From positions 1-39,910 of the forward strand of contig JAIEPE010000016.1 in NCBI GenBank assembly GCA_019749915.1: a stretch of DNA of 39,910 nucleotides, in the 5' to 3' direction. This stretch comes from Alphaproteobacteria bacterium (GTDB lineage: Bacteria > Pseudomonadota > Alphaproteobacteria > UBA9655). The position numbers and the translations under genes are program-made. Positions 4,244 through 39,910 of this stretch are shown piece by piece (the first letter of the stretch is position 1; every line of letters starts with the position of its first letter). The notes below the pieces were generated by a model that ran no database searches, was not told the DNA's origin, and saw only the letters and a list, made by a program, of their open reading frames with translations.

Positions 4244-4252
4244 ATCCTACTC

Positions 4253-20286: not shown

Positions 20287-20362
20287 GGGCGCTTAGCTCA
20301 GTTGGTAGAGCATCTGACTTTTAATCAGAGGGTCATGGGTTCGAATCCCGTAGCGCCTACCA
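20287..20362 (+). tRNA. tRNA-Lys (anticodon UUU)
   Basis: A 76-base cloverleaf folds completely. The acceptor arm GGGCGCT pairs with AGCGCCT (G1-U72 wobble), the D arm is GCTC...GAGC, the anticodon stem CTGA/TCAG encloses loop CTTTTAA with anticodon TTT, and the T arm is GGGTTCGAATCCC-like with GTTCGAATC. The 3' CCA is encoded. A hairpin terminator begins within the CCA end. The gene stands alone and marks the border between dense chromosome and the giant-protein locus. Confidence 0.96.
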
Positions 20363-20850: not shown

Positions 20851-23800
20851 ATGCTTAAAAAAGTTCTTTGTTGGCTGCTTATATTTCAGCATATAAATGT
20901 TTATGTGCTCCGCGCTGCCACTGGAGACATTAAAATCTTGTTTGAGGAAGAAGATGTTGCCCCCTCATCCTCAACATCAAAATTTAGGCTTAAACTTTTG
21001 CAAGAAACTGATGAAGGAGACTTTCAATCAAAAGTTGATACCGTTTTTGAAACACTTGACTCTAGTTCAAGAACATTTAAACCGCATTTTTCCCGAGATG
21101 GAAATGATTTTAAAGTAAAAACGGATGGGGCAACAATTTCACTTGTTTCTCATCAAAGAGATAACTCATTTGCTATTGTATTTAATCGAGATGGAAAAAC
21201 TGATCTTAAAAATTTTAAAACAAAAAACTTTATTGATATTGCCACATATGGAGATATCTTTGCTAAGACAAATTCACGGTCTTCTGCACTCTCTCTCTCG
21301 GGTAAAAATTTTAAAAACGAAGCTTTATTTAACGTAGATAATTTTAACCTTACCCTAACAGGGACTGAAGAGAAAAAAGGGTCCTTTATAAATGGCTCTT
21401 CAGCTCAATTTATTATTGGGAAAGAAGCTCATCTTCATCAAGGAGATCTTGAAAATCAAGGCAGAATTACCGGAAAAAACAAGAGTTTTCTAGATCTTAA
21501 TGGAAATGATTTTGTAAATATGAATGTAGGGCAAAAACGAGGTATGTCCTTTCGTACATATCTTACTTGGGAAGATCAGTTCTCTATTTTAAATGCAGGA
21601 ATCTTTCGAAATCAGACAGATATTATTTCTTCTAAAGATAATACAAATTGTCAACTTACCCTCAACGCCAGGAAATTTATTAATGAAGCGAGAGGCACTA
21701 TCTTTTCTTCGAAAAATCTTAACATATCTTGTCTTAAAGATTTTACAAACAGAGGGGAGATAAAGTCCGAAGAAGAAGTTAATCTTTATGCATCTGGAAA
21801 CCTTTTGAATTTCCACAAAATTCAAAGTAACAACTCATTGAAGCTCGAAGCTGGAAGGTTAAAAAATAAAGGACGTATTCTAGGAGACGTCACTGATATT
21901 AAGGGCAAAATTTTAGTTAAAAATGAGGGAACTTTTAAGGCACGAGATTTTTCATTAACAACACCCCTTATGTTAAATACTCATGACATTAAAGTTACAG
22001 AAAAAGGGCAAATAAGAGGATCTCTCCTCTTAAACAAGGGATCTGTTACCTCTAAGGGAAGTCTTGATATAAAGAGAAGGTCTCGTGATGAGGCTTTTCT
22101 CAACGATCTAAGAGAACCCTCTTTAGTACCCCAAGAGCATAAGAAAAATTATGGCTCTCTCATTAATCAGGGTTCAATTTCTGGAACAAAAATTAAGATG
22201 TCTTTGACCTCAGTTGAAAATTCCTCAAGAATTTATGCTGAAAATCATATGCATTTAGATACTGAGAGTATTTTAAAAAATACCTTGTCCGGTCTTCTCT
22301 CCTCTGGAGGAGATCTTACTTTTGAAAGTCAGGGTCATTTAGTTAATGAAGGGCTTCTTAAAAGTGAGGGAAGTTCTTTGCTAAGGGCAGCAAAACTGGA
22401 AAATGTAGGAAGAATTATTGCAAATCAAGATATTGAAGGAAGATTTGGCCAAACAGTATCGGGAAAGAGACAGTCAGTTGATTTTACAAACAGGGGCTTG
22501 ATTTTAGGACAAAATGTTGGGTTAGACTTTTTTAAAGGAACAAGTAGATGTCTTCTTAAAAATAACATTGATTTAAATGATCCTCGCTCTTTCGAAGGCA
22601 TTGTGGCTCTTAACTCTCTTTGCTTGCAAGTTGAAGATGATTTTGAAAATGAGGGACATTTGCTGGGGGTGGGGCAGGCTCAAATCATAGGGACAGGGAA
22701 CATTCATCAAAGAGGAGTTCTTCAATCTCAAGGTGATGTTTCACTTCTGGGAAAAAGTCTTGAAAACTCCCATCTGATATCTGCAGGAGGAGCTATTGTT
22801 GCTAACTTTAGTGATGGCTTAGGCAATACAGGGCTTGTTTCAGGGCAAGACAATGTTGATCTCACATTTCGAACTTTTCAAAATAGTGGAAAAGTTAGTG
22901 GCCGTGAATTTGTCGGCTTAAAAGGTTTACAGGGAGAGAATTCTGGAGATATAGAGGGGAAAAAAGTTAGCCTTACGGGAAGAGAAGTTTCTTCTGAAGG
23001 AGCCATAAACCAAGATAAATATCATCCTGCGTCAAAATTTGAAAATAGTGGACGAATATATGGACAAGATCATCTGAGCTTAAGTGTAGCTTCTTTAAGC
23101 AATCTGGGTGAGCTTACTTCAGGAGAAGATTTAACCTTAGATGTGATGGATTTGAGAAATGATGACTCTATTATAGCAGAGCGTACCTTGTCTCTTACAG
23201 CTGAGGGTCAAGCTATAAATAATCGTGTTATTCAAGGAAGCAACGGGTCAGTATCGATCAATGCACAGTCTTTTGAGAATCATGGTCAATTAAGCGCCAT
23301 TGATTGTCCTTTAGATTTAAAAGTTGTTAAGGGAGACAATCATGGTCTTATTTTTGGTCAGAGCGGAATTACGCTTCAGGTAGAGTCCTTATTTACAAAC
23401 CATAAAAATGAAAGAACACCACAAGAAAGTAAACTTGGCCTTGTACAAAGTCCGCGCGCCATTACAATCTCAGGAGAGGGAAGGTTAAAGAATCATTCAT
23501 TTTTTGAATCTGGCAATTTAATCAACATTAATGTGGGTTTTGATAATGCCGGGGTCATTCACGCCAATGAAGGCATTGTTTGTAAAAGCGAAGGAAACTC
23601 TTCTACAAATGAAGATACAGGAAATATCCTCGCGATAGGGGTTGTTGATATTGAGAATACGGCTTCTTTCACAAATCAAGGTCAGATTAGAGGAAGTAAA
23701 ACCACTTTAAAGACAAGAGACTTCTCGAATGAGGGAACGATAAGTGTAAAAGTTGGAGAAAGATCTCCAGAAGGAGTCAAGCCTTCACTAACTATAACGG

Positions 23801-26800
23801 CTCAAAATGGTCAAAGTTCAGGGCTTTTAAGTGCTGAGGATATTATAGATCTTCAATTTTCTGAAAGACTTGAAAACTCAGGGAATATCTTGTCTGAAGG
23901 AAGTATTTTGCTGCGAGCAGCAAAATTAAAAAATGTAGGAAGAATTATTGCAAAACATGATATTGAAGGAAGATTTGGCCAAACAGTATCGGGAAAGAGA
24001 CAGTTAGCTGATTTTACAAACAGGGGCTTGATTTTAGCGCAAAATGTTGGGTTAAACCTTGTTAAAGGAACAAGTAGATGCCTTCTTAGAAATAACGTTA
24101 ATTTAAATGATCCTCGCTCTTTTGAGGGTATTGTGGCTCTTAACTCTCTTTGTTTGCAGGTTGAAGGCGATTTTGAAAATGAGGGACATTTACTTGGGGT
24201 GGGGCAGGCTCAAATTACGGGGACAGGAAATATTCATCAAAAGGGGATTCTCCAATCACAAGGTAACATTTCACTTCTGGGGAAAAATCTTGAAAACTCA
24301 CATCTGATCTCTGCAGGAGGAGCCACTGTTGCTAACTTTAGTGAAGGCTTAACCAATACAGGGGTTATTTCAGGGCAAAGCAATGTTGATCTCACACTCC
24401 AGACTTTCCAAAACAGTGGAAAAATTAGCGGCCATGAATTTGTCAGTTTAGGAGGTTTAGAGGGAAAGAATTCTGGAGACATTAATGGGAAGAAGGTTAG
24501 CCTCGTTGGGAGAGAGTTTTCTTCTGAGGAAACTGATTTAAGCCAAAGTAAATATCATTCTGCGTCAAAGTTTGAGAATAAAGGGCGGATATACGGACAA
24601 GACCGTTTAAACTTAAATGTAGCTTCTTTAGAAAATTTCGGAAAACTTATCTCAGAGAAAGACTTAACCTTAGATGTAATGGATTTGAGAAATGATGACA
24701 CTATTACAGCAGAGCGTACCTTGTCTCTCACGGCTGAGGGACAGGTCGCAAATAACCATGTTATTCAAGGAAGCAACGGATCGGTATCGATCAATGCATA
24801 TTCTTTCGAGAATCATGGTCAATTAAGAGCCATTGATTGTCCTTTAGATTTAAAAGTTGTTAAGGGAGACAATCACAATCTTATTTTTGCTCAAGATGGA
24901 GTTACGCTTCAGGTAGGGTCCTTATTTACAAATCATAAAAATGGAAACGCGCCGCCAGAAAATAAACTTGGCCTTATACAAAGTCCAGGCTCCATTACAA
25001 TCTCAGGGGAAGGGCGATTAAGGAATCATTCATTTTTTGAATCAGGCGGCTTAATCAACATTAATGTTGGCTTTGATAATGCTGGAGTCATTCACGCCAA
25101 TGAAGGCGTTGTTTGTAGAACTGAAGGGCACTCTTCCACAAATGAGAGTACAGGAAATATCCTCACAATAGGAGGCATAGATATTGAGAATACGGCTTCT
25201 TTCACAAACCAAGGTCAGATTAGAGGAAGCAAAACCACTTTAAAGACAAGAGACTTCTCGAATGAGGGAACGATAAGTGTAAAAGTTGGAGAAAGATCTC
25301 CAGAAGGAGTCAAGCCTTCACTAACTATAACGGCTCAAAATGGTCAAAGTTCAGGGCTTTTAAGTGCTGAGGATATTATAGATCTTCAATTTTCTGAAAG
25401 ACTTGAAAACTCAGGAAAGATTTTTTCTGAAGAAATTAATATCACTGAAACAGGAGAAATTCATCAAAAGGGGATTCTCCAATCACAAGGCAACATTTCA
25501 CTTCTGGTTAAAAACCTTGAAAACTCCCATCTGATCTCTGCAGGAGGAGCTATTGTCGCTAAGGTTAGCGAGGGTTTAAGCAGTACAGGGGTTATTTTAG
25601 GGCAAGACAATGTTGATCTCGCATTCCAGACTTTCCAAAACAGTGGAAAAATTAGCGGCCATGAATTTGTCAGTTTAGGAGGTTTAGAGGGAAAGAATTC
25701 TGGAGACATTAATGGGAAGAAGGTTAGCCTCGTTGGGAGAGAGTTTTCTTCTGAGGAAACTGATTTAAGCCAAAGTAAATATCATTCTGCGTCAAAGTTT
25801 GAGAATAAAGGGCGGATATACGGACAAGACCGTTTAAACTTAAATGTAGCTTCTTTAGAAAATTTCGGAAAACTTATCTCAGAGAAAGACTTAACCTTAG
25901 ATGTAATGGATTTGAGAAATGATGACACTATTACAGCAGAGCGTACCTTGTCTCTCACGGCTGAGGGACAGGTCGCAAACAATCATGTTATTCAAGGAAG
26001 CAACGGATCAGTATCGATCAGTGCACATTCTCTTGAAAATCATGGTCAATTAAGAGCCATTGATTGTCCTTTAGATTTAAAAGTTGTTAAAGGAGATAAT
26101 CACAATCTTATTTTTGCTCAGAGCGGAATTACGTTTCAGGTAGAGTCCTTATTTACAAACCATAGAAATGAGAGAGTGCCCCAAGAAAATAAACTCGGCC
26201 TTGTACAAAGTTCGGGCTCCATCACAATCTCGGGAGAAGGGCGACTGAGAAATCATTCATTTTTTGAATCAGGGAATTTAATTAACATTAATATGGGTTT
26301 TGATAATGCCGGAACCCTTCATGCCAATGAAGGCATTGTTTGTAAAAGCGAAGGAAACTCGTCTACAAATGAAGATACAGGAAATATCCTTACGATAGGG
26401 GTTATCGATATTGAGAATACGGCTTCTTTCACAAACCAAGGTCAGATTAGAGGGAGCAAAGCTACTTTAAAGACAAGAGAGTTCTCAAATGAGGGAACGA
26501 TAGGCGTAAAAGTTGGAGAAAGATCTCCAGAAGGAGTCAAGCCTTCACTAACTATAACGGCTCAAAATGGTCAAAGTTCAGGGCTTTTAAGTGCTGAGGA
26601 TACTATAGATCTTCAATTTTCTGAAAGACTTGAAAACTCAGGGAGTTTCTTGTCTGAAGGAAGCATTTTGCTGCTCGCAGCAAAATTAAAAAATGTAGGA
26701 AGAATTATTGCAAAACAAGATGTTAAGGGAAGATTTGGCCAAACAGTATCGGGAAAGAGACAGTCAGTTGATTTTACAAACAGGGGCTTGATTTTAGGAC

Positions 26801-29800
26801 AAAATGTTGGGTTAGACTTTTTTAAAGGAACAAGTAGATGTCTTCTTAAAAATAACATTGATTTAAATGATCCTCGCTCTTTCGAAGGCATTGTGGCTCT
26901 TAACTCTCTTTGCTTGCAAGTTGAAGATGATTTTGAAAATGAGGGACATTTGCTGGGGGTGGGGCAGGCTCAAATCATAGGGACAGGGAACATTCATCAA
27001 AAGGGAGTTCTCCAGTCACAAGGTAACATTTCACTTCTGGGGAAAAATCTTGAAAACTCGCATCTGATATCTGTGGGAGGAGCCACTGTTGCTAACTTTA
27101 GTGAAGGCTTAACCAATACAGGGGTTATTTCAGGGCAAGACAATGTTGATCTCACATTCCAGACTTTCCAAAACAATGGAAAAATTAGTGGCCGTGAGTT
27201 TATCAACTTAAGAGGCTTAAAAGGAGAAAATTCTGGAGACATTAATGGGAAGAACGTTAGCCTCGTTGGGAGAAAATTTTCTTCTAAGGAAATTGATTTA
27301 AGCCAAAGTAAATATCACTCAGAATCAAAACTTGAGAATAGAGGGCGGATATACGGACAAGACCATTTGAGCTTAACTGTAGCTTCTTTAGACAATCTGG
27401 GCAAGCTTACTTCAGGAGAAGATTTAACCTTAAATGTGATGGATTTGAGGAATGACGACTCCATTACAGCAGAGCGTACATTGTCTCTTACAGCTGAGAG
27501 TCAGGTAGTAAATAATCATGTTATTCAAGGAAACAACGGGTCAGTATCGATCAGTGCGCATTCTCTTGAAAATCGGGGTCAACTAAGTGCCGTTGATTGT
27601 CCCCTAGGTTTAAAAATTGTTAAGGCTGACAATCATGGTCTTATTTTTGGTCAGAGTGGGGTTACGCTTCAGGTAGAGTCCTTATTTACAAACCATAAAA
27701 ATGAAAGAACACCACAAGAAAGTAAACTTGGCCTTGTACAAAGTCCGCGCGCCATTACAATCTCAGGAGAGGGAAGGTTAAAGAATCATTCATTTTTTGA
27801 ATCTGGCAATTTAATCAACATTAATGTGGGTTTTGATAATGCCGGGGTCATTCACGCCAATGAAGGCATTGTTTGTAAAAGCGAAGGAAACTCGTCTACA
27901 AATGAAGATACGGGAAATATCATTTCGACAGGAGTTGCTGATATTGAGAATACGGCTTCATTCACGAATCAAGGTCATATTAGAGGGAGCAAAGTCACTT
28001 TAAAGACAAGAGAGTTCTCAAATGAAGGAACGATACGTGTAAAAGTTGGAAAGGAATCTTCGGAAGAAGTAAAGTCCTCACTAACAATAACGGCTCAAAA
28101 TGGACAAAATTCAGGAACTCTAAAGGCTACAGATGCTATAGATCTTCAATTTGGTGAAAGACTTGAAAACTCAGGAGATGTTATTTCTGAAGAAAGCATT
28201 TTACTGCGAGCAGCAAAATTAGAAAATGTAGGAAGAATTATCGCCAAGCAAGATGTTAAGGGAAGCTTTGGCCAAAGAGAATCGAGAAATGTTTCGGTTG
28301 ATTTTACAAACAGGGGCTTGATTTTAGGACAAAATGTTGGGTTAGACTTTTTTAAAGGAACAAGTAGATGTCTTTTAAGAAATAACATTGATTTAAATGA
28401 TCCTCGCTCTTTCGAAGGTATTGTGGCTCTTAACTCTCTTTGTTTGCAGGTTGAAGAGGATTTTGAAAATGAGGGACATTTACTTGGGGTAGGCCAGGCT
28501 CAACTCACGGGGACAGGAAATATTCATCAAAGAGGAATTCTTCAGTCACAAGGTGAAATTTCTCTTCTGGGAAAAAGCCTGGAAAACTCACATCTGATAT
28601 CTGCAGGAGGAGCTATCGTTGCTAACTTTAGCGAAGGCTTAACCAATACAGGCGTTATTTCAGGGCAAGACAATGTTGATCTCACATTCCAGACTTTCCA
28701 AAACAATGGAAAAATTAGTGGCCGTGAGTTTATCAACTTAAGAGGCTTAAAAGGGGAAAATTCTGGAAACATTGAAGGGAAAAAAGTGAGCTTCGTTGGG
28801 AGAGAGTTTTCTTCTGGAGAAACCCTAAGCCAAGAAAAATATCATCTTGCGTCAAAGTTTGAGAATAGTGGATGGATACATGGACAAGAGCATTTAAATT
28901 TAAATGTGGCCTCTTTAGAAAACTTAGGTGAGCTTACTTCAGGAGAAGATTTAACCTTAAACGTGATGGATTTAAGGAATGACGATTCCATTACAGCAGA
29001 GCGTACCTTGTCTCTGACAGCTGAGAGGGAGGCAATAAATAATAATATTATTAGAGGAAATAATGGATCGGTATCGATTAATGCATACTCTTTCGAGAAT
29101 CATGGTCAGTTAGGTGCCATTGATTGTCCTTTAGATTTAAAAGTTGTTAAGGGAGACAATCACAATCTTATTTTTGCTCAAGAGGGAATTATACTTCGGG
29201 TTGAGTCCTTATTTACAAACCACAGAAATGAGGAAGCATCACAAGACAGTAAACTTGGCCTTATACAAAGTCCGGGCTCTATCACAATCTCGGGAGAAGG
29301 GCGACTGAGAAATCATTCATTTTTTGAATCAGGTGACTTAATCAACATTAATCTAGGCTTTGCTAATGCTGGGACCCTTCACGCCAATAAAGGTATTATT
29401 TGTAAAACTGAAGGACATTCTTCTACAAATGAAGGCAGAGGAAATATTCTCACGACAGGGGTTGTCGATATTAAGAATACGGCTTCTTTCACAAACCAAG
29501 GTCATATTAGAGGAAGCAAAGCCACCTTCAATACAAGAGAGTTCTCGAATGAGAGGACGATACATATAAAAGATAGAGAAGGATTTTCAGGAGATCTAAC
29601 TATAAAGGCGCAAAATGGCCAAAACTCAGGGACTCTAAGAGCTACAGATACTATAAATCTTCAATTTGTTGAACGATTTGAAAACTTAGGAGATGTTTTG
29701 TCTAAGGAAGCGATTATCTCAGGAGGTGGAATTTTAGAGAATAGAGCGTCTGGCAAAATACGAGGAACGGAAAGTCTCGTCCTTCGAGAAATAAGCTTAA

Positions 29801-32800
29801 ATAATGCTGGAAGGTTAGAGTCTTCAAAGAAGATAGAGCTCCATAATTTGCAAGGGGAGGTTCAAAACCAATCAACAGGAACACTTCTTTCTGGTGGAAG
29901 AGTGAATCTTCACCATATCCAAGCCTTTCATAATTTTGGAAAATTTCAAGTTCGAGATTTAGCTAGAATTGAAGTTGTGAAATTAGAAAATAGTGGCTTC
30001 ATTGTATCGCAGGGTGACCTAGACCTTTTGCTTGAGATAGGAAGCAATGAAGAGACGGGTCGTATTATTGCAAAGGGAGATCTTCGCATGACTATTGATC
30101 CCCTCGGCAAAAAGCAAGGAAGCGCACAAGAAGAAACATGGATAAATAAAGGAGCCATTTCTTCAGGAAAAAAATTAACCCTCTCAGGGAACGGAACAGC
30201 TAAGAATCAAAAAGACATTTTGGCACAAGAAATGTCAATTAATCTTCCAGGTTTGAAAAATGAAGGAACAGTTGAAACTGATAAGATCCTTGAAATTCAG
30301 GTAAAAGAGTTATCAAATTTAGGATTTTTCCAATCAATAGAGGGAAATATTTCTCTCGTTTTTTCAACAGGTGTGAATTCTAACCATGGCAAAGTTTTCT
30401 CTCAGAAGAATCTCTCAATTCAATCAGAGAGGGAATTTTTAAATTTAGGAGAAGTCGAATCGATGGAAGCTCTTTCTGTGAGTGGAGCTGGAAAACTAGA
30501 GAACAGAAATATAATATCAAGTGTTCACGATCTGACCTTAGATCTCCCGAGCATCGTTAATTCAGGTGAGCTCTCCTCCTCGAATGACTTATGGGTCACA
30601 AGAAGAGAGGGGTATTTTACGAATGAAGCGAGTGGAATTCTCCTGGCCTCGAAAAAACTTGTCCTTCAGGATCTTCTTCTTCTCAAGAACAGTGGAGAAA
30701 TTCAGGGACAAGCCGGAATCTTGTTTACAGGCAAGCATCTTGAAAATGAGAAGTCGATATCCTCCCTTACAGGAAACATTGAGCTATCTCTTGGCTCTGC
30801 CGAGAATAAAGGAAGTGGTTTTATAGGAACGAACCAAAACTTAATAATCGATGTAGATGGTCGATTTAACAACCAAGGCCATATTAGAGGAAGCAAAGCC
30901 ACCTTAAAGACGAGAGAGTTCTCGAATGAGGGGATGATATGTGTAAAGGTTGGAGAAGAATCTCCAGAAGGAATTAAGCCCTCACTAACTATAACGGCTC
31001 AAAATGGACAAAATTCAGGGATATTAAGAGCTACGGATACTATAGATCTTCAAGTTTCTGAAAGGCTTGAAAATTCAGGAGATATTTCCTCAGGTGGAAA
31101 TCTTACTTTTGAAAGTCAGGGGCATTTAATCAATGAAGGGCTTCTTGAAAGTGGGGAAAGCATTTTGCTGCAAGCAGTAAAGTTAGAAAATGTAGGAAGA
31201 GTTATCGCCAAGCAAGATGTTAAAGGAAGATTTGGCCAAACAGGATTAGGAAATGTTTCGTCAGTTGATTTTACAAACAGAGGCTTGATTTTAGGGCAAA
31301 ATGTTGGATTAGATTTTTTTAAAGGAACAAGTATATGTCTTCTTAGAAATAACATTAATTTAAATGATCCTCTTTCCTTTGAAGGTATTGTGGCTCTTAA
31401 TTCCCTTTGTTTGCGGGTTGAAGATGATTTTGAAAATGAGGGACATTTACTGGGGGTAGGGCATGCTCAAATCATGGGGACAGGAGCAATTCATCAGAGA
31501 GGTGTTCTGCAGTCACATGGTGACGTTTCTCTTTTGGGGAAAAGTCTTGAAAATTCAAATTTGATATCTGCGGGAGTGGGCACTGTTGCTAACTTTAGCG
31601 AGGGCTTAACCAATACAGGCGTTATTTCAGGACAAGACGGTGTTACCTTAAACGCTCATAGCATAATGAATAAGGCGTTAGGTGAAGCGTCTTCTCCTCT
31701 TATTGTCTCTAAGAATTTGGGTGTTGATCTCACATTCCAGACTTTCCAAAACAGTGGAAAAATTAGTGGTCGTGAATTTGTCAGCTTAAGAGGTTTAGAA
31801 GGGAAGAATTTTGGAGATATAGAAGGAAGAAAAGTTAGCCTCGTTGGGAGAGAACTTTCTTCTGAGGGAGCATTAAGTAATCCAAGCCAAGGCAAAAATC
31901 ATTCTGGATCAAAGTTTGAGAACAGAGGGTGGATATATGGACAAGACCGTTTAAATTTAAATGTAGCTTCTTTAGAAAATCTAGGTGAGCTTACCTCAGG
32001 AGAAGATTTAACTTTAGACGTGATGGATTTGAGAAATGATGACTCCATTACAGCAAAGCGTACATTATCCCTTACAGCTGATAGCCAGGCTATTAATAAT
32101 AAAATTATAGAATCACATACTCTTTTTCTAAGAGGGCATCGTTTTCATAATTTGTCTTCAGGAAGCCTCAAAACTTCAAGGTTTACATCAACGGTTGATG
32201 TTTTTAAAAACAGTGGTTCCTTGAAGATTGGTGAAGGTGAGTTTATAGGGGACTCTTTTAAAAATACAGGATGTTTAACAAGCGTAGATACACTCAATCT
32301 TTCTTTCAAGAAGAGGTTAAAAAATACTGCTGAAAGCTTCATTAGATCTGAAGCTGGAATCCTCGTGACAACAAATATCCTTGATAATGAAGGAGAGATA
32401 GAGGCTCGTGGGGAGTTTACATCTACTCTTGATGAACTTTCGAACCGTGGAACACTAAAATCAGGAAGAGCATTCAGCCTTAATAATTTGTCCAAGAGAG
32501 CAAGAAGTTTAAAGAATGCTGCGGGAGGTATTATTAAGTCTGAGGCTGCAATCTGCTTAACGGCAAATGTCCTCGATAACGAAGGAGAGATAGAGGCTCA
32601 TGGCGAGTTCACCTCTACTCTTGATGAATTTTCGAACCGTGGAATATTAAAATCGGGAAGAACATTCAGCCTTCATAATTTATCTAGTGGAATAAGAAGT
32701 TTAAAGAACGCTGAGGGAGGTATTATTAAATCTGAGGCCGCACTCTATTTGACGGCAGATGTCCTTGATAACGAAGGAGAGATAGAGGCTCTCGGAGAGT

Positions 32801-35800
32801 TCGCATCTATTCTCGATGAACTCTTAAATCGTGGAACATTAAAATCAGGAAAAGCATTTAGCCTTAATAATTTATCCAGGGGAGTAAGAAACCATGGAAG
32901 CATTCTTTCAGAAACAAAACTTTCCATAAATTCAACTTCAGATATCGTCAACAATCACATTATTCAAGGAAGAAATGAGTCAGTATCGATCAGTGCATCT
33001 TCTCTTGAGAATCGGGGTCTATTAAGTGCCGTTAATTGTCCTTTAGCTTTAAACTTTGTTAAAGCAGACAATCACAATCTTATTTTCGGTCAAGAAGGAA
33101 TCACTTTTCAGATTGGATCCTTATTTACAAACCATAAAAATGACAGAGCAACACAAGAAAATAAACTTGGCCTTGTGCAAAGTCAGGGATCCATCACAGT
33201 TTCAGGCGAGGGAAGATTAAGAAATCATTCATTTTTTGAATCAGGCAATTTAATTAACATTAATATGGGTTTTGATAATGCCGGGACTCTTCATGCCAAT
33301 AAAGGTATTCTTTGTAGAACTGAAGGACATTCTTTCACAAATGAAGGCAGAGGAAATATTCTCACGACAGGAGTTGTTGATATTGAGAATGCGGCTTCTT
33401 TCACAAACCAAGGTCATATTAGAGGAAGCAAAGCCGCCTTCAAAATAAGAGAATTCTCGAATGAGGGGATGATAAATATAAAAAGTAGAGAAAGATCTCC
33501 AGGAGATCTAGCTATAAAGGCTCAAAATGGTCAAAATTCAGGGACTCTAAGAGCTACAAATACTATAGATCTTCAATTTGCTGAAAAACTTGAAAATTCA
33601 GGAGATGTTACTTCTGAAGAAACTATTATCTCAGGAGGGGGAGTTTTAGAGAATGGGATCTCTGGCAAAATACGAGGAACGGAAAGTCTCGTCCTTCGAG
33701 AAATAAGTTTAAATAATGCTGGGAGATTAGGGTCTTTAAAGAATATAGAGCTCCACAATTTGCATGGGAGTGTTCAAAACAAATCAACAGGAAAAATTCT
33801 TTCTGGTGGAAGAGTTAGTCTTCACCACGCCCAAACCTTCTATAATTTTGGAAAACTTCAGACTCGAGATTTAGCTAAAATTGAAGCGCTACAATTAGAA
33901 AATAGTGGATCCATTGTATCAACTGAGGGCGATTTAGATCTTTCGCTTGAGACAGGAAGCAATGAAGAGACAGGTCACATTATTGCAAAGAGAGACCTTT
34001 GTATGACTGTTGATCCCCTCGGCAAAAAACAAGGAAGCGGACAAGAAGAAGCATGGATAAATAAAGGGAACGTTTCTTCAGGAAAGAAATTAACCCTCTC
34101 GGGAAAAGGAACTGTCAGAAATCAAAAAGGGGTTTCGGGACAAAAGATATCGATTGATCTTCCAGGTCTGAAAAATGAAGGAAGAATCGAAGCTGAGAAG
34201 ACTCTTACCGTTCGAGTAGACGAATTATCGAATTCAGGTCTTGTTCAATCAACTGAGGGTGATTTAGACCTTTTGCTTGAAACAGGAAGCAATGAAGAGA
34301 CGGGGCATATTCTTGCAAAGGGCGATCTTCACATGACGATTGATTCCCTCGGCAAAAACAGAGGACAAAGAGAGCTTATTAATAAAGGAGTCATTTCTTC
34401 AGGAAAGAAATTAACCCTCTCAGGGAACGGAACAGTTAAGAATCAAAAAGATATTTCGGGGCAAGAAATGTCAATTAATCTTCAGGGTTTGAAAAATGAA
34501 GGAGGAATTGAAGCTGATAAGACTCTTGCCATTCGAGTAGATGAATTATCGAATTCAGGTCATATTCAGTCTACTGAGGAGAATATTTCTCTCACTTTTT
34601 CAACAGGTGTGAATTCTAACCATGGCAAAATTCTCTCTCAGAAGAGTCTTTCAATTCAACCAGGATCGGAGTTTTCAAATTTAGGGGAAGTCGAGTCGAT
34701 GGAAGCTCTTTCTATAAGTGGCGCTGGAAAACTAGAGAACAGAAATATAATATCAAGTGTTCACGATCTGACCTTAGATCTTCCGAGCATCGTTAATTCA
34801 GGTGAGTTCTCCTCCTCGAATGATTTATGGGTAATAAGAAGAGATGGGCATTTTACAAATGAAGCGAGTGGAATTCTCCTGGCCTCGCAAAAACTTACCC
34901 TTCAGGATGTTCTTCTTTTCAGGAATAGTGGAGAGATTCAGGGACAAGCCGGAATCTTGTTTACAGGTAAGCATCTTGAAAATGAGAAATCGATGTCCTC
35001 CCTTACAGGAGACATTGTGTTCTCCCTTGACTCTGCCGAGAATAAAGGAACCGGTTTTATAGGAACGCACCAAAACTTAACAATCAATATAGGTGGTCAA
35101 TTTGATAACCAAGGTCAACTTGTAGCAACAAAACATCTTCAATTTACGGGAAACGGATCTCTTATAAATAAGGGAAATCTTGAGGGGAAAGAGAAACTCT
35201 CTATCTTCCTTCCTACATTGATCAACCAGGGAACACTAAGTTCCGAAAACTACATCGAACTCATAGATGTGACTTCCTCATGTGTAAACGAAAGGACGGG
35301 AGAAATTAATTCCAGCGGTGTCTTGGACATCAGAAATTCGCCTGTCTTTACAAATCAGGGGATAGTTGTAGCTGCTAGAGCTTTTGATCAAGAACACGGT
35401 TATTCCTTTAGAAAACTAATAAATGAAGGGACATTTGCTTTAACGTTAGGAGATTTAAAACTTACAACTGATGAATTTGAAAATGCTGGATCTCTAAACA
35501 CCCTTGGAACGTTAACTCTTGTTCTGAATGGCTTACCTGCTAACACGGCTAATAACACAGGTTCAATTCAGGGAAAAACTTTGTTTCTGACAGGAAGACA
35601 AACTTTTGATAATAAAGGGTATCTCAGAGGAAATGAACACCTTACCTATACTGCTGGAAAATTAACCAATAGTGGGGCTCTTTCTGCGGATCAAACTCTC
35701 TCCATTCAAAGTGATTTTACGAACGAGCCCATTTCGGGAAAAAATGATTCGGGGAAGATAAGTACACCAGGAACGATCCAGATTCAAAGCCCTTTGTTAG

Positions 35801-38800
35801 CAGAAAACTGGGGAACAATTATCGGAAATCAAGGCATTACAGGATCGTTTAATAGTTTTACTAATCACGGCATCCTCTCTTCGAGTGAAAAAGGGGTAAA
35901 TATCACCTTAGAGAGTGGTTCTAACACAGGAACAATTGGCGCACTTCAGGCGATAATCTTAACATTGCAGAGTGGTTTTACAAATTCGAATTCCATTATA
36001 AGTAAGGAGGGAGAAATATCCTTTTTAGGCACGGGTCATTTTATGAATTCGAAAACGGTTAGTGCAGTAGGAGCGGTCAGTTTTAGGAATACACAGGTTA
36101 CAAACAGCGGAACTTTATCCTCAACTATAAGTATGACCTTTGATGGTGTGTTAAATGGGATCTTAAATGACAACGTTGGACCAGATGAAGGTAAAATTTT
36201 TACTCCCAACTTGGATATCAAAAACACATCATTTTTAACTAATAAGGGAAAGATTAATGTGTTTGGACATCTTGATGCACAGCCGATAACGTCTACCAGT
36301 CAAAATAATATCCAAACCAATACAGCAAATGTCCAAGTCTTAAATTTTAATAATTCCGGCCAGGTTTTGGTTGAAGGGGCTTTAGACTTGACGACAAAGG
36401 CCGGAAATAATACGGGAGAAATCCAGGGATACGATCTAACCTTACAACCAACTGAATCTTTTATAAACACTAAGATTTTGAGGGGGACTCAGTCTGTAAG
36501 CTTTAAAGGAGAGGGAGTCATTCAGAATAAAGATGAAGCTCAAATATTCTCCTTGGGATCGATGAGCATAGAAAATGAAAAATTGGAGAATAGTGGTCAT
36601 GTTCAAGCGGGGGACAATGTTGCTGTGGGTGATGACTCCTCACTTGATAATACAGCTGGAGCGACATTCGTTTCAAAAGGTAATTTAAATGTGGCTCAAA
36701 AAGGGGTTTTGTTAAATGAAGGAAAACTCACGGCAAGGACAATAACCTATCATTCAGACGCTTTCAGGAATGGAGGAGAGATACGGGCTGAAAGCAATAT
36801 AAGCTTTCCAAATTGTCAAACTTTTAAAAATGATAGTGAGAGGTTGATAATTTCAGAGACAGGACAAATTACCTTACCAAATGTTTTGAGTTTTGATAAT
36901 GACGGGGAAATCTTGAGTCAAGAGGACTTCAGCCTTTCCAACGTCACATCATTCAGGAATACAGGGACCATTGGTACGGCCAAAAAATTAACTATCATCT
37001 CGCCAACATCATTTTCTAATGAAGGAAAACTTCAAGGAAAAACAGGAACGGACCTTATAAGTACAGAAACCTTAATAAATTATGGGGAAATTTTTTCTGA
37101 AGAGAGCGTTTCTCTCAATGCAAGAAGAATTCACAATTACGCTGGTATCAATGGAGACAAAGGCGTCACTCTCAATGGAACGGAGATAGTTGAGAATGCG
37201 GTTGAGAATGTGGGTGAACATGGAATTAACAGTAAAGATGGAAAAATATTGATTACAACTCATTCACTCCAAAACAGTGGACCCATCAAAGGAAAAAGCG
37301 TTACGCTTAATACGCAAAACTCACCCACCCTGGCTAACATTAAAGCCGTAACATCTTTAGAAATTTGTTCTCCAGAAGGTATATCCTTTGGAGGAAAATC
37401 TCAAACATTTGGTCATGATGTTTCAATTACAGGACCTCTCTATAATCTTCCTCCGAAAGAGGGAAGCCTCGAAGTCAAAGGTAACTTTACATGGACGAAT
37501 ACCTCGGCCGGATTCGCCAATTTATGTAATGAATGCACCATGAGAATTGGTGGCGTATTGACCGTTATTAATCCAGGAGGAGCCTGGATTAACCAAGGAA
37601 AAGTCCAAGCTCTGGGAGGAACAAATGCAACATTAGCTATTTTTGAAAACAGAGGATCATATTATGGAGGCGGTAATTCAAAATTTACGTGTTCCGGTGA
37701 CTTTAATAACTATGGAGATATAAGATTTGTTGATGGCGTCTTAGTTCATGCGCAGGGAGGATCGATCACCAATCATTCCAAAGCAGAAATTCTGCAAACT
37801 GGTGAGGGGAGCACTGTTGCCTTTATCGCAAGAGATCGAATTGAAAACATTGCCGGCATCATTAATATCAGAGGACGACTAGAATCACTCTCAACTCAAT
37901 TTACAAATAGCGTCCTGCCCCCAATAATAAAAGCAAAGATGCACGGACGTAGGTGTCAACAACTAGTCACATTTACGACATCACAAAACATTCCCGCCTC
38001 AATCTATGTCGGAAGTGCCCATATAGAAACGTATTTTGGGCAAAATATAGGGGGATTAATTTCCTCCAGAGGGATGATTCATTTTAATGGAGCTAGCTTT
38101 CAGAATCTTTCTCAAGAGTATTTTTATCAAGGGACAAGTCAGGTTGAAATTTGGAAATATGAATTTGTCGATATACCTTATAAGGTACCTCTTGGCTGTG
38201 ATGTTGCAAAATTCTATTCTCAAGGGGATATGGCTATAACAGTTGGAGGAACCACGCACACAGGAGAGGCTCTCCTTCACCTTAACTCCCCCCCTCCCAC
38301 GCTGATACGGGGGAGATTTCTTCCACTTTTTAACCCGCCGCCTGAGTCCCCCATCAAAAATACAGGAGATATTAAAGCTTATGGAGCCTTTAACATTACT
38401 GCTCCAGCAATTCATATACCTCAATTTTCAGCAATTGAGGCACCAGGAGTCGTGATTCCTCCTGTCATTTCTTTAGATATGTACTTATCAGATACTCAGA
38501 AAAATGGTCAGGGCTTTTGGATTCCAGACACAGCAAAGCAGACTGAATTTTTATATATTCCTTCATTTCCCATTGACCTTATTTCAGAAGAATCTATTGC
38601 GGTTCAGCTCTCTCCAGAAAATCTTAAAAGCAAGCAAGCTGCTGAAAAGGCAACGCAGGAATTTAAACAGTGGGTTATTGAAAGGTGGAATAGCCGTCCC
38701 GAAGGAAGGACATTGAGTCGAAGAGGACAATATACACAGCAGTCTGCTGAACTCAATGAGCTTTTGGCGCGTATTTCTGCCCTTTCAGAGTTTTGGGAAC

Positions 38801-39910
38801 CGAATGTAGAAGAACTTGGCAAAATCACGCCTCTTTCCCTCACGCTAGCTCCCCCGAGGATAGCTGTCTTGGATGATCCAAGGATGACAGGGAGAGAAAG
38901 AATGCGCTTTCATCCCGAGATGTTGGCAGATTTAGTTTCCAAGAGTCTTTTAGCTAATATTGGTTTTGCATCCCTTTCAAAGCATATCTTTAGTCCCATT
39001 CTCCTTTCAAGGGTTTTGGAAGAAGAAGGCTACCTCAACGCAGTCAGAATTCATGGAAGACCAGCCTTACCAGCTCCTCAAAATTGGGAGTGTTTAAGTG
39101 CGCAGGAAAGAATAGCACGACAACTTCGTGAAGTTGTTTTCCCCCATGAATTAGAAAGGTTTGATACCCCAGCAATTGTTTATAAACTTATGCAAGACCA
39201 TGGTGAGTTGGTTTTATCAGCTTTGTTAACGCTTCCCAGACACATACGAGAACAATTTCAATCGGCAGTTGGGCGCATGGTAGCTCATTATTGGGGATTC
39301 AATTCAACCCAAGGAAATACAACCCTCAGTGGGGTGACTCTTATCGCGAGGGATGGAGTCTCATTAGATTCTGCGGGAAGTGTCACAATCGAAAATGTAG
39401 ATGTGCTCTCAGGAAAAGACTTAAACATAACTGCTGGAGGAACGGTTTCTTTTGCGCCCAAAATATTAAGAAGTGAGCAGACAACAAGAAGAAAGACAAT
39501 CAGCATCACTGAACACAAGATATCTCACCTTTCAGCAATGGAAACGATAAATATCAAGGCTCGTCAAAATATTAAGCGTGGGGCCCTAGGAACTTATTCT
39601 GAGAAGGGGACAACCTATGATGCTCCGATCATAGAGGATGAGGAACTTCATGATCAGCACGTTGAAACAGAGACAAAGAAAAAAAGAAGGGCTTGGAGAA
39701 GTAAAACAACTCTAAGAGAATCCTCAATAAGTACTCCTGTTCTTAATAGAGACATCTCTAAAGGTCCCGTTTCTCTTAAGGGAGAAAAATTTGTACAGCT
39801 CATCGCTCCCAAATTTAGCAGTCCCATCGTTGGTTTTGACACGCCACACCTGATCCTTGAGACAGCGGAAACAACCACATCTTCAAGTTCCCATACACGA
39901 AAATCCAATC
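20851..39910 (+). CDS. giant secreted filamentous-haemagglutinin-like repeat protein (3' end outside window)
   Basis: One open frame of at least 6353 codons runs from ATG 20851 (GGGAGG three bases upstream) to the window edge without a stop. The N terminus is a Sec signal peptide (MLKKVLCWLLIFQHINVYVL, cleavage near RAA). Nearly everything after it consists of short strands closed by N-x-G turns (for example FxNxGxIxG and LxNxGxL), the pattern of a right-handed beta helix as in filamentous haemagglutinin and CdiA. In order: unique beta region to about residue 480; modules A1-A5; module B1; A6; three 64-residue repeats; an A tail; module B2; about 1150 residues of diverged single-copy repeats; a non-repetitive, Pro-poor, helix-rich stretch (about residues 5900-6150, with WVIERWNSRPEGR and LADLVSKSLLANIGF); then new beta repeats with GKDLNITAGGTVSF, like the second haemagglutinin-repeat block of CdiA/FHA. 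I see no recognisable TPS (haemagglutination-activity) domain at the N terminus and no TpsB gene nearby. Probable role: surface adhesin or contact-dependent effector carrier; this is inference. Confidence 0.88.
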   Translation, partial: MLKKVLCWLLIFQHINVYVLRAATGDIKILFEEEDVAPSSSTSKFRLKLLQETDEGDFQSKVDTVFETLDSSSRTFKPHFSRDGNDFKVKTDGATISLVSHQRDNSFAIVFNRDGKTDLKNFKTKNFIDIATYGDIFAKTNSRSSALSLSGKNFKNEALFNVDNFNLTLTGTEEKKGSFINGSSAQFIIGKEAHLHQGDLENQGRITGKNKSFLDLNGNDFVNMNVGQKRGMSFRTYLTWEDQFSILNAGIFRNQTDIISSKDNTNCQLTLNARKFINEARGTIFSSKNLNISCLKDFTNRGEIKSEEEVNLYASGNLLNFHKIQSNNSLKLEAGRLKNKGRILGDVTDIKGKILVKNEGTFKARDFSLTTPLMLNTHDIKVTEKGQIRGSLLLNKGSVTSKGSLDIKRRSRDEAFLNDLREPSLVPQEHKKNYGSLINQGSISGTKIKMSLTSVENSSRIYAENHMHLDTESILKNTLSGLLSSGGDLTFESQGHLVNEGLLKSEGSSLLRAAKLENVGRIIANQDIEGRFGQTVSGKRQSVDFTNRGLILGQNVGLDFFKGTSRCLLKNNIDLNDPRSFEGIVALNSLCLQVEDDFENEGHLLGVGQAQIIGTGNIHQRGVLQSQGDVSLLGKSLENSHLISAGGAIVANFSDGLGNTGLVSGQDNVDLTFRTFQNSGKVSGREFVGLKGLQGENSGDIEGKKVSLTGREVSSEGAINQDKYHPASKFENSGRIYGQDHLSLSVASLSNLGELTSGEDLTLDVMDLRNDDSIIAERTLSLTAEGQAINNRVIQGSNGSVSINAQSFENHGQLSAIDCPLDLKVVKGDNHGLIFGQSGITLQVESLFTNHKNERTPQESKLGLVQSPRAITISGEGRLKNHSFFESGNLININVGFDNAGVIHANEGIVCKSEGNSSTNEDTGNILAIGVVDIENTASFTNQGQIRGSKTTLKTRDFSNEGTISVKVGERSPEGVKPSLTITAQNGQSSGLLSAEDIIDLQFSERLENSGNILSEGSILLRAAKLKNVGRIIAKHDIEGRFGQTVSGKRQLADFTNRGLILAQNVGLNLVKGTSRCLLRNNVNLNDPRSFEGIVALNSLCLQVEGDFENEGHLLGVGQAQITGTGNIHQKGILQSQGNISLLGKNLENSHLISAGGATVANFSEGLTNTGVISGQSNVDLTLQTFQNSGKISGHEFVSLGGLEGKNSGDINGKKVSLVGREFSSEETDLSQSKYHSASKFENKGRIYGQDRLNLNVASLENFGKLISEKDLTLDVMDLRNDDTITAERTLSLTAEGQVANNHVIQGSNGSVSINAYSFENHGQLRAIDCPLDLKVVKGDNHNLIFAQDGVTLQVGSLFTNHKNGNAPPENKLGLIQSPGSITISGEGRLRNHSFFESGGLININVGFDNAGVIHANEGVVCRTEGHSSTNESTGNILTIGGIDIENTASFTNQGQIRGSKTTLKTRDFSNEGTISVKVGERSPEGVKPSLTITAQNGQSSGLLSAEDIIDLQFSERLENSGKIFSEEINITETGEIHQKGILQSQGNISLLVKNLENSHLISAGGAIVAKVSEGLSSTGVILGQDNVDLAFQTFQNSGKISGHEFVSLGGLEGKNSGDINGKKVSLVGREFSSEETDLSQSKYHSASKFENKGRIYGQDRLNLNVASLENFGKLISEKDLTLDVMDLRNDDTITAERTLSLTAEGQVANNHVIQGSNGSVSISAHSLENHGQLRAIDCPLDLKVVKGDNHNLIFAQSGITFQVESLFTNHRNERVPQENKLGLVQSSGSITISGEGRLRNHSFFESGNLININMGFDNAGTLHANEGIVCKSEGNSSTNEDTGNILTIGVIDIENTASFTNQGQIRGSKATLKTREFSNEGTIGVKVGERSPEGVKPSLTITAQNGQSSGLLSAEDTIDLQFSERLENSGSFLSEGSILLLAAKLKNVGRIIAKQDVKGRFGQTVSGKRQSVDFTNRGLILGQNVGLDFFKGTSRCLLKNNIDLNDPRSFEGIVALNSLCLQVEDDFENEGHLLGVGQAQIIGTGNIHQKGVLQSQGNISLLGKNLENSHLISVGGATVANFSEGLTNTGVISGQDNVDLTFQTFQNNGKISGREFINLRGLKGENSGDINGKNVSLVGRKFSSKEIDLSQSKYHSESKLENRGRIYGQDHLSLTVASLDNLGKLTSGEDLTLNVMDLRNDDSITAERTLSLTAESQVVNNHVIQGNNGSVSISAHSLENRGQLSAVDCPLGLKIVKADNHGLIFGQSGVTLQVESLFTNHKNERTPQESKLGLVQSPRAITISGEGRLKNHSFFESGNLININVGFDNAGVIHANEGIVCKSEGNSSTNEDTGNIISTGVADIENTASFTNQGHIRGSKVTLKTREFSNEGTIRVKVGKESSEEVKSSLTITAQNGQNSGTLKATDAIDLQFGERLENSGDVISEESILLRAAKLENVGRIIAKQDVKGSFGQRESRNVSVDFTNRGLILGQNVGLDFFKGTSRCLLRNNIDLNDPRSFEGIVALNSLCLQVEEDFENEGHLLGVGQAQLTGTGNIHQRGILQSQGEISLLGKSLENSHLISAGGAIVANFSEGLTNTGVISGQDNVDLTFQTFQNNGKISGREFINLRGLKGENSGNIEGKKVSFVGREFSSGETLSQEKYHLASKFENSGWIHGQEHLNLNVASLENLGELTSGEDLTLNVMDLRNDDSITAERTLSLTAEREAINNNIIRGNNGSVSINAYSFENHGQLGAIDCPLDLKVVKGDNHNLIFAQEGIILRVESLFTNHRNEEASQDSKLGLIQSPGSITISGEGRLRNHSFFESGDLININLGFANAGTLHANKGIICKTEGHSSTNEGRGNILTTGVVDIKNTASFTNQGHIRGSKATFNTREFSNERTIHIKDREGFSGDLTIKAQNGQNSGTLRATDTINLQFVERFENLGDVLSKEAIISGGGILENRASGKIRGTESLVLREISLNNAGRLESSKKIELHNLQGEVQNQSTGTLLSGGRVNLHHIQAFHNFGKFQVRDLARIEVVKLENSGFIVSQGDLDLLLEIGSNEETGRIIAKGDLRMTIDPLGKKQGSAQEETWINKGAISSGKKLTLSGNGTAKNQKDILAQEMSINLPGLKNEGTVETDKILEIQVKELSNLGFFQSIEGNISLVFSTGVNSNHGKVFSQKNLSIQSEREFLNLGEVESMEALSVSGAGKLENRNIISSVHDLTLDLPSIVNSGELSSSNDLWVTRREGYFTNEASGILLASKKLVLQDLLLLKNSGEIQGQAGILFTGKHLENEKSISSLTGNIELSLGSAENKGSGFIGTNQNLIIDVDGRFNNQGHIRGSKATLKTREFSNEGMICVKVGEESPEGIKPSLTITAQNGQNSGILRATDTIDLQVSERLENSGDISSGGNLTFESQGHLINEGLLESGESILLQAVKLENVGRVIAKQDVKGRFGQTGLGNVSSVDFTNRGLILGQNVGLDFFKGTSICLLRNNINLNDPLSFEGIVALNSLCLRVEDDFENEGHLLGVGHAQIMGTGAIHQRGVLQSHGDVSLLGKSLENSNLISAGVGTVANFSEGLTNTGVISGQDGVTLNAHSIMNKALGEASSPLIVSKNLGVDLTFQTFQNSGKISGREFVSLRGLEGKNFGDIEGRKVSLVGRELSSEGALSNPSQGKNHSGSKFENRGWIYGQDRLNLNVASLENLGELTSGEDLTLDVMDLRNDDSITAKRTLSLTADSQAINNKIIESHTLFLRGHRFHNLSSGSLKTSRFTSTVDVFKNSGSLKIGEGEFIGDSFKNTGCLTSVDTLNLSFKKRLKNTAESFIRSEAGILVTTNILDNEGEIEARGEFTSTLDELSNRGTLKSGRAFSLNNLSKRARSLKNAAGGIIKSEAAICLTANVLDNEGEIEAHGEFTSTLDEFSNRGILKSGRTFSLHNLSSGIRSLKNAEGGIIKSEAALYLTADVLDNEGEIEALGEFASILDELLNRGTLKSGKAFSLNNLSRGVRNHGSILSETKLSINSTSDIVNNHIIQGRNESVSISASSLENRGLLSAVNCPLALNFVKADNHNLIFGQEGITFQIGSLFTNHKNDRATQENKLGLVQSQGSITVSGEGRLRNHSFFESGNLININMGFDNAGTLHANKGILCRTEGHSFTNEGRGNILTTGVVDIENAASFTNQGHIRGSKAAFKIREFSNEGMINIKSRERSPGDLAIKAQNGQNSGTLRATNTIDLQFAEKLENSGDVTSEETIISGGGVLENGISGKIRGTESLVLREISLNNAGRLGSLKNIELHNLHGSVQNKSTGKILSGGRVSLHHAQTFYNFGKLQTRDLAKIEALQLENSGSIVSTEGDLDLSLETGSNEETGHIIAKRDLCMTVDPLGKKQGSGQEEAWINKGNVSSGKKLTLSGKGTVRNQKGVSGQKISIDLPGLKNEGRIEAEKTLTVRVDELSNSGLVQSTEGDLDLLLETGSNEETGHILAKGDLHMTIDSLGKNRGQRELINKGVISSGKKLTLSGNGTVKNQKDISGQEMSINLQGLKNEGGIEADKTLAIRVDELSNSGHIQSTEENISLTFSTGVNSNHGKILSQKSLSIQPGSEFSNLGEVESMEALSISGAGKLENRNIISSVHDLTLDLPSIVNSGEFSSSNDLWVIRRDGHFTNEASGILLASQKLTLQDVLLFRNSGEIQGQAGILFTGKHLENEKSMSSLTGDIVFSLDSAENKGTGFIGTHQNLTINIGGQFDNQGQLVATKHLQFTGNGSLINKGNLEGKEKLSIFLPTLINQGTLSSENYIELIDVTSSCVNERTGEINSSGVLDIRNSPVFTNQGIVVAARAFDQEHGYSFRKLINEGTFALTLGDLKLTTDEFENAGSLNTLGTLTLVLNGLPANTANNTGSIQGKTLFLTGRQTFDNKGYLRGNEHLTYTAGKLTNSGALSADQTLSIQSDFTNEPISGKNDSGKISTPGTIQIQSPLLAENWGTIIGNQGITGSFNSFTNHGILSSSEKGVNITLESGSNTGTIGALQAIILTLQSGFTNSNSIISKEGEISFLGTGHFMNSKTVSAVGAVSFRNTQVTNSGTLSSTISMTFDGVLNGILNDNVGPDEGKIFTPNLDIKNTSFLTNKGKINVFGHLDAQPITSTSQNNIQTNTANVQVLNFNNSGQVLVEGALDLTTKAGNNTGEIQGYDLTLQPTESFINTKILRGTQSVSFKGEGVIQNKDEAQIFSLGSMSIENEKLENSGHVQAGDNVAVGDDSSLDNTAGATFVSKGNLNVAQKGVLLNEGKLTARTITYHSDAFRNGGEIRAESNISFPNCQTFKNDSERLIISETGQITLPNVLSFDNDGEILSQEDFSLSNVTSFRNTGTIGTAKKLTIISPTSFSNEGKLQGKTGTDLISTETLINYGEIFSEESVSLNARRIHNYAGINGDKGVTLNGTEIVENAVENVGEHGINSKDGKILITTHSLQNSGPIKGKSVTLNTQNSPTLANIKAVTSLEICSPEGISFGGKSQTFGHDVSITGPLYNLPPKEGSLEVKGNFTWTNTSAGFANLCNECTMRIGGVLTVINPGGAWINQGKVQALGGTNATLAIFENRGSYYGGGNSKFTCSGDFNNYGDIRFVDGVLVHAQGGSITNHSKAEILQTGEGSTVAFIARDRIENIAGIINIRGRLESLSTQFTNSVLPPIIKAKMHGRRCQQLVTFTTSQNIPASIYVGSAHIETYFGQNIGGLISSRGMIHFNGASFQNLSQEYFYQGTSQVEIWKYEFVDIPYKVPLGCDVAKFYSQGDMAITVGGTTHTGEALLHLNSPPPTLIRGRFLPLFNPPPESPIKNTGDIKAYGAFNITAPAIHIPQFSAIEAPGVVIPPVISLDMYLSDTQKNGQGFWIPDTAKQTEFLYIPSFPIDLISEESIAVQLSPENLKSKQAAEKATQEFKQWVIERWNSRPEGRTLSRRGQYTQQSAELNELLARISALSEFWEPNVEELGKITPLSLTLAPPRIAVLDDPRMTGRERMRFHPEMLADLVSKSLLANIGFASLSKHIFSPILLSRVLEEEGYLNAVRIHGRPALPAPQNWECLSAQERIARQLREVVFPHELERFDTPAIVYKLMQDHGELVLSALLTLPRHIREQFQSAVGRMVAHYWGFNSTQGNTTLSGVTLIARDGVSLDSAGSVTIENVDVLSGKDLNITAGGTVSFAPKILRSEQTTRRKTISITEHKISHLSAMETINIKARQNIKRGALGTYSEKGTTYDAPIIEDEELHDQHVETETKKKRRAWRSKTTLRESSISTPVLNRDISKGPVSLKGEKFVQLIAPKFSSPIVGFDTPHLILETAETTTSSSSHTRKSN
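22300..23890 (+). repeat. module A, copy 1
   Basis: First copy of the roughly 510-residue module. It opens with SSGGDLTFESQGHLVNEG and then LRAAKLENVGRII (anchor at 22381), with the landmarks DFTNRGLILGQNVG, LNDPRSFEGIVALNSLC, NHSFFESGNLININ and GQIRGSKTTLKTR. It ends with LERLENSG-like DLQFSERLENSG. Distance to the next anchor is 1530 bases. Confidence 0.9.
23891..25433 (+). repeat. module A, copy 2
   Basis: Anchor LRAAKLKNVGRII at 23911. Full-length copy. Its centre (24398-24752) is identical to copy 3, while part of its tail (25234-25415) is identical to that of copy 1. Confidence 0.9.
25450..26650 (+). repeat. module A, copy 3 (front missing)
   Basis: This copy begins at GEIHQKGILQSQGNISLL and lacks the first roughly 100 residues of the module, including the anchor and the RCLL and LNSLCLQV segments. 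Spacing to copy 2 is 1227 bases over the shared part. The frame is preserved across the junction. Confidence 0.88.
26651..28180 (+). repeat. module A, copy 4
   Basis: Anchor LLAAKLKNVGRII at 26671. Full-length copy. Bases 26731-27001 are identical to 22441-22711 of copy 1, and 27664-27893 are identical to 23371-23600 of copy 1. Confidence 0.9.
28181..29712 (+). repeat. module A, copy 5
   Basis: Anchor LRAAKLENVGRII at 28204, 1533 bases after that of copy 4. Full-length but more diverged, with the tail shortened around GDLTIKAQNGQNSGTL. It is followed directly by module B1. Confidence 0.88.
29713..30867 (+). repeat. module B, copy 1
   Basis: A second module type of about 385 residues: IISGGGILENRASGKIRGTE, ETGRIIAKGDLRMTIDPLGKK, VFSTGVNSNHGK, SMEALSVSGAGKLENRNI and ASGILLASKKLVLQD. 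It recurs once, at 33625, 3912 bases later. Confidence 0.88.
30868..32115 (+). repeat. module A, copy 6 (tail fragment plus front two thirds)
   Basis: An A tail (NQGHIRGSKATLKTREFSNEG) is followed at 31087 by the same GGNLTFESQGHL opening as copy 1, the anchor LQAVKLENVGRVI at 31168, and the module up to SLTADSQAINN. There it breaks off into the unrelated 64-residue repeats. It holds a private 24-residue insertion (about 31643-31714). Confidence 0.85.
32314..32889 (+). repeat. three tandem 64-residue repeats
   Basis: Three units of exactly 192 bases (32314-32505, 32506-32697, 32698-32889) share SLKNAxGGIIKSEAA, VLDNEGEIEAxGEF and NRGTLKSGxAFSLNNLS. Units 2 and 3 are most alike; unit 1 is more diverged. 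Confidence 0.9.
32950..33624 (+). repeat. module A, copy 7 (tail part only)
   Basis: Resumes the A module at NNHIIQGRNESVSISA and runs through LFTNHKNDRATQENKLGLV, NHSFFESGNLININ and NQGHIRGSKAAFK to DLQFAEKLENSG. It is then joined to module B2 exactly as copy 5 is joined to B1. Confidence 0.85.
33625..35110 (+). repeat. module B, copy 2, with an internal 110-residue duplication
   Basis: Second copy of module B. A 330-base segment beginning STEGDLDL is present twice in tandem (starts at 33919 and 34249), making this copy longer than B1 by about that amount. The flanking parts match B1 closely, for example LENRNIISSVHDLTLDLPS. Confidence 0.88.
38284..38355. repeat. GC-rich palindromic insertion inside the giant gene
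   Basis: CTCCCCC at 38286-38292 is complementary to GGGGGAG at 38309-38315, in a C/G-rich stretch unlike the AT-rich gene around it. It encodes a proline-rich interruption (LNSPPPTLIRGRFLPLFNPP) between ordinary beta-repeat segments, without breaking the frame. On the other strand it reads SPPYQRGRGG, the kind of peptide that GC-rich dispersed palindromes typically give. Confidence 0.5.

Follow-up and report, generated by a model that had tools for sequence, protein, structure and literature searches.

Among the contact-dependent growth inhibition (CDI) and two-partner secretion (TPS) systems, TpsB is regarded as the dedicated exporter of FHA/CdiA proteins, and the main role known for FHA itself is that of an adhesin. 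CdiA proteins range from 180 to 630 kDa and CDI loci typically contain orphan modules without a start (PMC9086364), while DUF637 is a pretoxin of type V secretion systems (T5SS) (PMC3482391) and the NPNG motif of TPS domains is described in a review as highly conserved and crucial (PMC5422565). Additionally, MafB of Neisseria, for which no TPS domain is reported, is not thought to use TpsB, and its outer-membrane route is not identified (PMC4287609); the CRCT modules of Rickettsia buchneri lack cdiB, and REIS_1424 has no predicted signal sequence (PMC9111745). In this study, we analysed a window of 39910 bp of alphaproteobacterial DNA, which is the entire contig G000:C56 of a draft genome (G000; 2.08 Mb, 97% complete) and which carries a giant exoprotein gene. 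The best explanation, which we consider likely, is that its frame belongs to a CdiA-like polymorphic toxin and covers the signal peptide, a TPS-like cap, the beta-helix stalk and the tip domain of this protein; its pretoxin and toxin would lie beyond the contig end.

The giant gene and the DUF637 cassettes

The giant gene and the parts on which this explanation draws are located as follows:

20851..39909, + strand: giant exoprotein gene; 6353 codons open from an ATG, with no stop; product of 684 kDa, its C-terminus missing
20851..20916, + strand: signal-peptide-like segment (MLKKVLCWLLIFQHINVYVLRA), 68–95% identical to the segments of four relatives
20917..21960, + strand: predicted TPS-like domain at the N-terminus with the first coils of the beta-helix, residues 23–370 (AlphaFold2 model and structure comparison)
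38791..39300, + strand: conserved domain near the stalk end, residues 5981–6150, 44–80% identical in relatives
39301..39909, + strand: second beta-repeat stretch in an FHA-2-like position, colinear with G003:C114

An earlier note on this DNA had described a single frame of more than 6350 codons passing the window edge, and this was borne out, as the contig ends inside the frame; the window comprises the whole contig, so that no extension of the gene is possible and its 3' end is missing. The last ~500 bp of the window are 85% identical to contig C114 of the sister species G003, where the frame continues into DUF637 (E 1.2e-13). In the genome of the window itself, contigs C31 and C45 carry DUF637 segments that have neither a signal peptide nor a start and are preceded by stops. 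These cassettes share 88–94% DNA identity over 760–1490 bp and then diverge into different toxins, namely Tox-REase-7, a Tox-REase-9-like toxin and one toxin without an assigned family, with Tox-SHH present on a further fragment. The genes beside the cassettes (SUKH, DUF2750, DUF4304, DUF7668, DUF1444 and HEAT-like) are of immunity type, spare ones included. Furthermore, a complete relative in genome G009 is arranged as signal peptide, TPS-like domain, FHA, DUF637, NAVENN and C-terminus, followed by a DUF2247 gene.

The colinear sister gene that runs into DUF637 and the DUF637-toxin-immunity cassettes of the same genome thus make a CdiA-like toxin stalk the most likely identity of the frame. 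The same two lines of evidence divide the earlier suggestion of a giant adhesin or contact-dependent effector, favouring a contact-dependent toxin over a plain adhesin. If the missing piece is as long as in G003 and is joined to C45, the full protein is estimated at ~7,050 residues. The G003:C114 gene is itself a second, short gene (L008 2–2047, − strand), in which a signal-peptide-like start of its own is fused directly to the last part of the stalk and DUF637, without the long stalk.

N-terminal domain, stalk modules and tip

The N-terminus is signal-peptide-like (MLKK, a hydrophobic core and RAA, read directly), in agreement with the earlier note. The first 22 residues are 68–82% identical to those of three relatives, while the next ~110 residues of these relatives are only 20–29% identical; conservation of this strength is unusual for a signal peptide. 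AlphaFold2, supplied with a four-row alignment, modelled residues 1–420 as almost all beta and as a beta-helix (pLDDT 81.9, pTM 0.82). Structural re-alignment of this model returned TPS proteins as all of the six best structures, over 196–294 residues: HMW1 (2odl, Z 21.2), EtpA (8cpk, Z 20.7), HxuA (4rm6, Z 18.9), EtpA (8vbb, Z 18.6), HxuA (4i84, Z 16.9) and FHA (1rwr, Z 14.4). The best non-TPS structures were other beta-helices (Z 13.2 and lower). The Pfam TPS profile PF05860 had no match anywhere in the genome of the window and matched the genus relatives G002 and G009; a profile of the N-terminal alignment had no match among PDB sequences. In place of NPNG, the protein has NRDG at residue 112 and relatives have NAYG, NPGG and NQEG. 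A TPS fold is accordingly a prediction of the model for this domain, although the domain is invisible to Pfam and lacks NPNG.

Within the protein, N-x-G was counted 185 times versus 59 in composition shuffles (77 in the highest of 200 shuffles), a threefold excess over chance, and the autocorrelation of Asn peaked at 19–20, 39–40 and 60 residues. The Fil_haemagg family PF05594 matched with an E value of 8.9e-9, and NCBIfam yielded just one sub-threshold match to a filamentous haemagglutinin repeat. The N-x-G excess, the period of 19–20 residues, the PF05594 match and the model of residues 1–420 uphold the FHA/CdiA repeat style and beta-helix proposed earlier; contrary to the earlier claim, the repeats do not extend quite throughout, since a conserved non-repeat domain occupies residues ~5980–6150. 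Comparison of 100-residue chunks against the whole protein gave the following module map, in which the tandem repeats are also listed:

22321..29670, + strand: ~510-residue stalk module, present in ~4.8 copies, residues 491–2940 (A 491–1000, B 1001–1510, C partial 1511–1920, D 1921–2431, E 2432–2940)
29539..30930, + strand: second module type, copy 1, residues ~2897–3360, matching residues 4201–4800 in parts
31048..32130, + strand: sixth, incomplete copy of the 510-residue module, residues ~3400–3760
32372..32890, + strand: 64-residue tandem repeat, 2.7 copies
33451..35250, + strand: second module type, copy 2, residues ~4201–4800, holding a 321-bp tandem repeat (33918–34579)

The module copies are mostly 70–92% identical, and one 100-residue stretch is 100% identical. 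The longest exact DNA repeat inside the window is 355 bp, and the copy number of the modules in this draft assembly is thus provisional. Stalk frames cut by contig ends reach 1900, 2243 (G012), 2955 (G003) and 6353 residues, and the stalks of relatives are shorter; the giant length thus stems from duplication of the ~510-residue module, which also provides a natural series of stalk lengths. A beta-helix rises 4.8 Å per coil, and with 19.5 residues per coil residues 140–5838 are estimated to span ~140 nm and each 510-residue module ~12.6 nm, assuming an unbroken beta-helix of which the model covers the first 420 residues.

The conserved domain near the stalk end, referred to here as the tip domain, appeared helical in a low-confidence model (mean pLDDT 37.7) that was used for no search. 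Among the genomes searched it is common only to members of the family, and its profile matched the window's genome alone across 385 genomes of the class. It is located where CdiA has its receptor-binding/YP region, a likeness limited to position because the model is poor.

Counter-evidence and the exporter search

Several observations weigh against a CdiA-like toxin, one being that the readable frame contains no toxin, as the contig ends first. FHA being mainly an adhesin, the stalk could itself be the function of the protein and the gene could stop soon past the contig edge; such a giant adhesin without a toxin appears improbable, since the sister gene continues colinearly into DUF637, a complete toxin-type relative is present in G009 and homologous DUF637 cassettes reside in the same genome. 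Additionally, a search of the G000 assembly did not recover the ~100 residues that would link the contig end to the start of DUF637, and for this reason the junction of the giant gene with a cassette is one that we infer, as are surface display, delivery and target; end overlaps of 15–31 bases between the window contig and C31 or C45 were likewise not found. To these may be added that Foldseek alone gave no match to the 1–420 model at E<=0.001, the TPS domain of HMW1 ranking first at 0.17.

Furthermore, the copy of the giant gene in G003 (contig C52 of which is the public contig JAKFXB010000027.1 of the Alphaproteobacteria metagenome-assembled genome ND2_Bin_14) contains an in-frame TAA at codon 42 (L009 around 3080), reflecting either assembly error or decay. 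This stop and the exact repeats of the window, the longest of which has 355 bp, would fit a decaying or mis-assembled gene with a non-working product, which we nevertheless regard as very improbable in view of the 6353 open codons, dN/dS values of 0.24–0.44 and a syntenic orthologue in G012. In that genome the order EamA, tRNA-Lys, giant gene is also kept, the tRNA upstream of the giant gene in the window being:

20287..20362, + strand: tRNA-Lys(TTT)

Relative to G003, the C-terminal stalk had a dN/dS ratio of 0.42 and the N-terminus one of 0.44; between internal copies of the module, which is under purifying selection, the ratio was 0.24–0.34. The GC content of the gene is 0.30 at third versus 0.48 at first codon positions. 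The frame is therefore not open by chance but encodes a real protein under selection. A ribosome-binding-site-like GGGAGG lies ~4 nt upstream of its ATG.

The remaining counter-evidence concerns the exporter. PF03865, the TpsB barrel, had no match in any of the 17 family genomes; as a positive control, it matched 22 of 77 genomes from elsewhere in the class. A profile built from ten TpsB proteins of the class left only weak traces in the family (best 1.2e-4), those in G000 and G002 falling inside Omp85/BamA frames, and elsewhere reached 1e-58 to 1e-212, including in genomes outside its building set. The 14 genus genomes checked had one Omp85 protein each, of BamA size where its frame was whole, and several family genomes are 99–100% complete. 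These results argue both against a cognate TpsB that is too divergent to be recognised and against one hidden in an assembly gap. The TPS-like fold does suggest a TpsB-like partner, which could sit in a gap of a 97% complete draft, but an ordinary CDI or two-partner system of this kind is, on balance, rather unlikely. With no TpsB found in the family, the protein does not count as part of a standard FHA/CdiA two-partner system, and export as for CdiA cannot simply be assumed; with CdiB, one of the defining features of CDI, not found, it was filed neither as CdiA nor as TpsA. Our reading is that it works like CdiA/TpsA up to the outer membrane. We put forward tentatively, as a possibility below even chances, that export of CdiA-type stalked toxins in the whole family dispenses with TpsB and uses BamA or another channel, the TPS domain having lost its usual motif and the conserved signal peptide perhaps carrying part of the targeting. 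A search covering part of the literature turned up no account, for this group, of toxins that have an FHA stalk but no TpsB. In G035, from another family of the class, DUF637 is located at G035:C1:637874-638398 in a 2249-codon frame, and no ShlB was detected there either.

Compared with CdiA (type Vb), the locus shares the TPS-like fold, the FHA beta-helix, a tip domain with a repeat region on either side, a DUF637/VENN-like pretoxin in cassettes and start-less orphan toxin-immunity modules; it differs in that no CdiB was found, NPNG is absent, the TPS domain is invisible to Pfam, the tip domain is different and the protein, even without its C-terminus, exceeds the size range of CdiA. With FhaB of Bordetella it has in common the repeat style and the fold of the secretion domain (1rwr), but here no FhaC was found, DUF637/toxin cassettes are present and the protein is longer through module duplication. 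The MafB proteins are polymorphic toxins as well; they bear signal peptides, have silent cassettes for their C-termini and are not thought to use TpsB. No TPS domain is reported for them, in contrast to the TPS-like fold predicted here, and to our knowledge they have no FHA stalk. The Rickettsiales CDI-like toxins without cdiB, such as the R. buchneri CRCT modules, also represent CDI-type toxin parts in alphaproteobacteria without CdiB, although, unlike REIS_1424, the protein described here retains an N-terminus resembling a signal peptide, along with a TPS-like fold. The present lineage is therefore a further comparator for the latter toxins, and the occurrence of intact-looking, selected and very long CdiA-like stalks with cassette arrays, in genomes where no TpsB is detectable, makes exit through another channel testable.

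Targets, cassette edges and neighbouring genes

As a CdiA-like toxin, the giant protein would be exported by Sec, after which its TPS-like N-terminal domain would initiate folding and passage across the outer membrane by way of a channel not recognisable as TpsB. The module-lengthened beta-helix, at the length estimated above, would keep the tip domain at a distance from the cell. On contact, a neighbouring cell would receive the released DUF637/VENN-type pretoxin together with a nuclease toxin, kin being protected by immunity proteins. The start-less DUF637-toxin-immunity cassettes would allow replacement of the toxin by recombination. A variant that differs in target only is a toxin that acts on a eukaryotic (protist) host, or serves host addiction, instead of killing rival bacteria. 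A precedent exists in the Holosporales, where a host-directed role was proposed for the three polymorphic toxin loci of Ca. Bodocaedibacter, but no FHA stalk is reported for these toxins in the portions of that study consulted (PMC8163844), and the many immunity-type genes, spare ones included, point to bacterial rivals; we consider a protist target unlikely.

A recurring C-terminal toxin, by eye a TNT NADase, was confirmed by no Pfam family or PDB chain and was left without assignment. At the 5' edge, each of the four start-less DUF637 cassettes in G000 carries an identical ~20-bp sequence, CTTTGACAAGTTAAAATAA, which is absent from the window and may be a recombination site, a promoter or a leftover. 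Its sites are:

L020, − strand: 6272, 3062 and 431
L021, + strand: 1697

On each of these contigs the toxin cassette is followed by a tandem array of ~117-residue paralogues (L020 6621–9404 and L021 3624–6332), which are probably immunity proteins; one of them, searched against Pfam, matched no family above the cut-off. Helicase/relaxase-like (TraA-like) genes adjoin toxin islands in two genomes (L021 18110–19999 and L060 10230–13526), hinting that the islands spread on conjugative elements. Finally, in G009 and G002 a GTPase-like gene with a glycine-rich, collagen-like tail adjoins the FHA/TPS-like gene (L060 150–2750 and L059 11552–15082, respectively).
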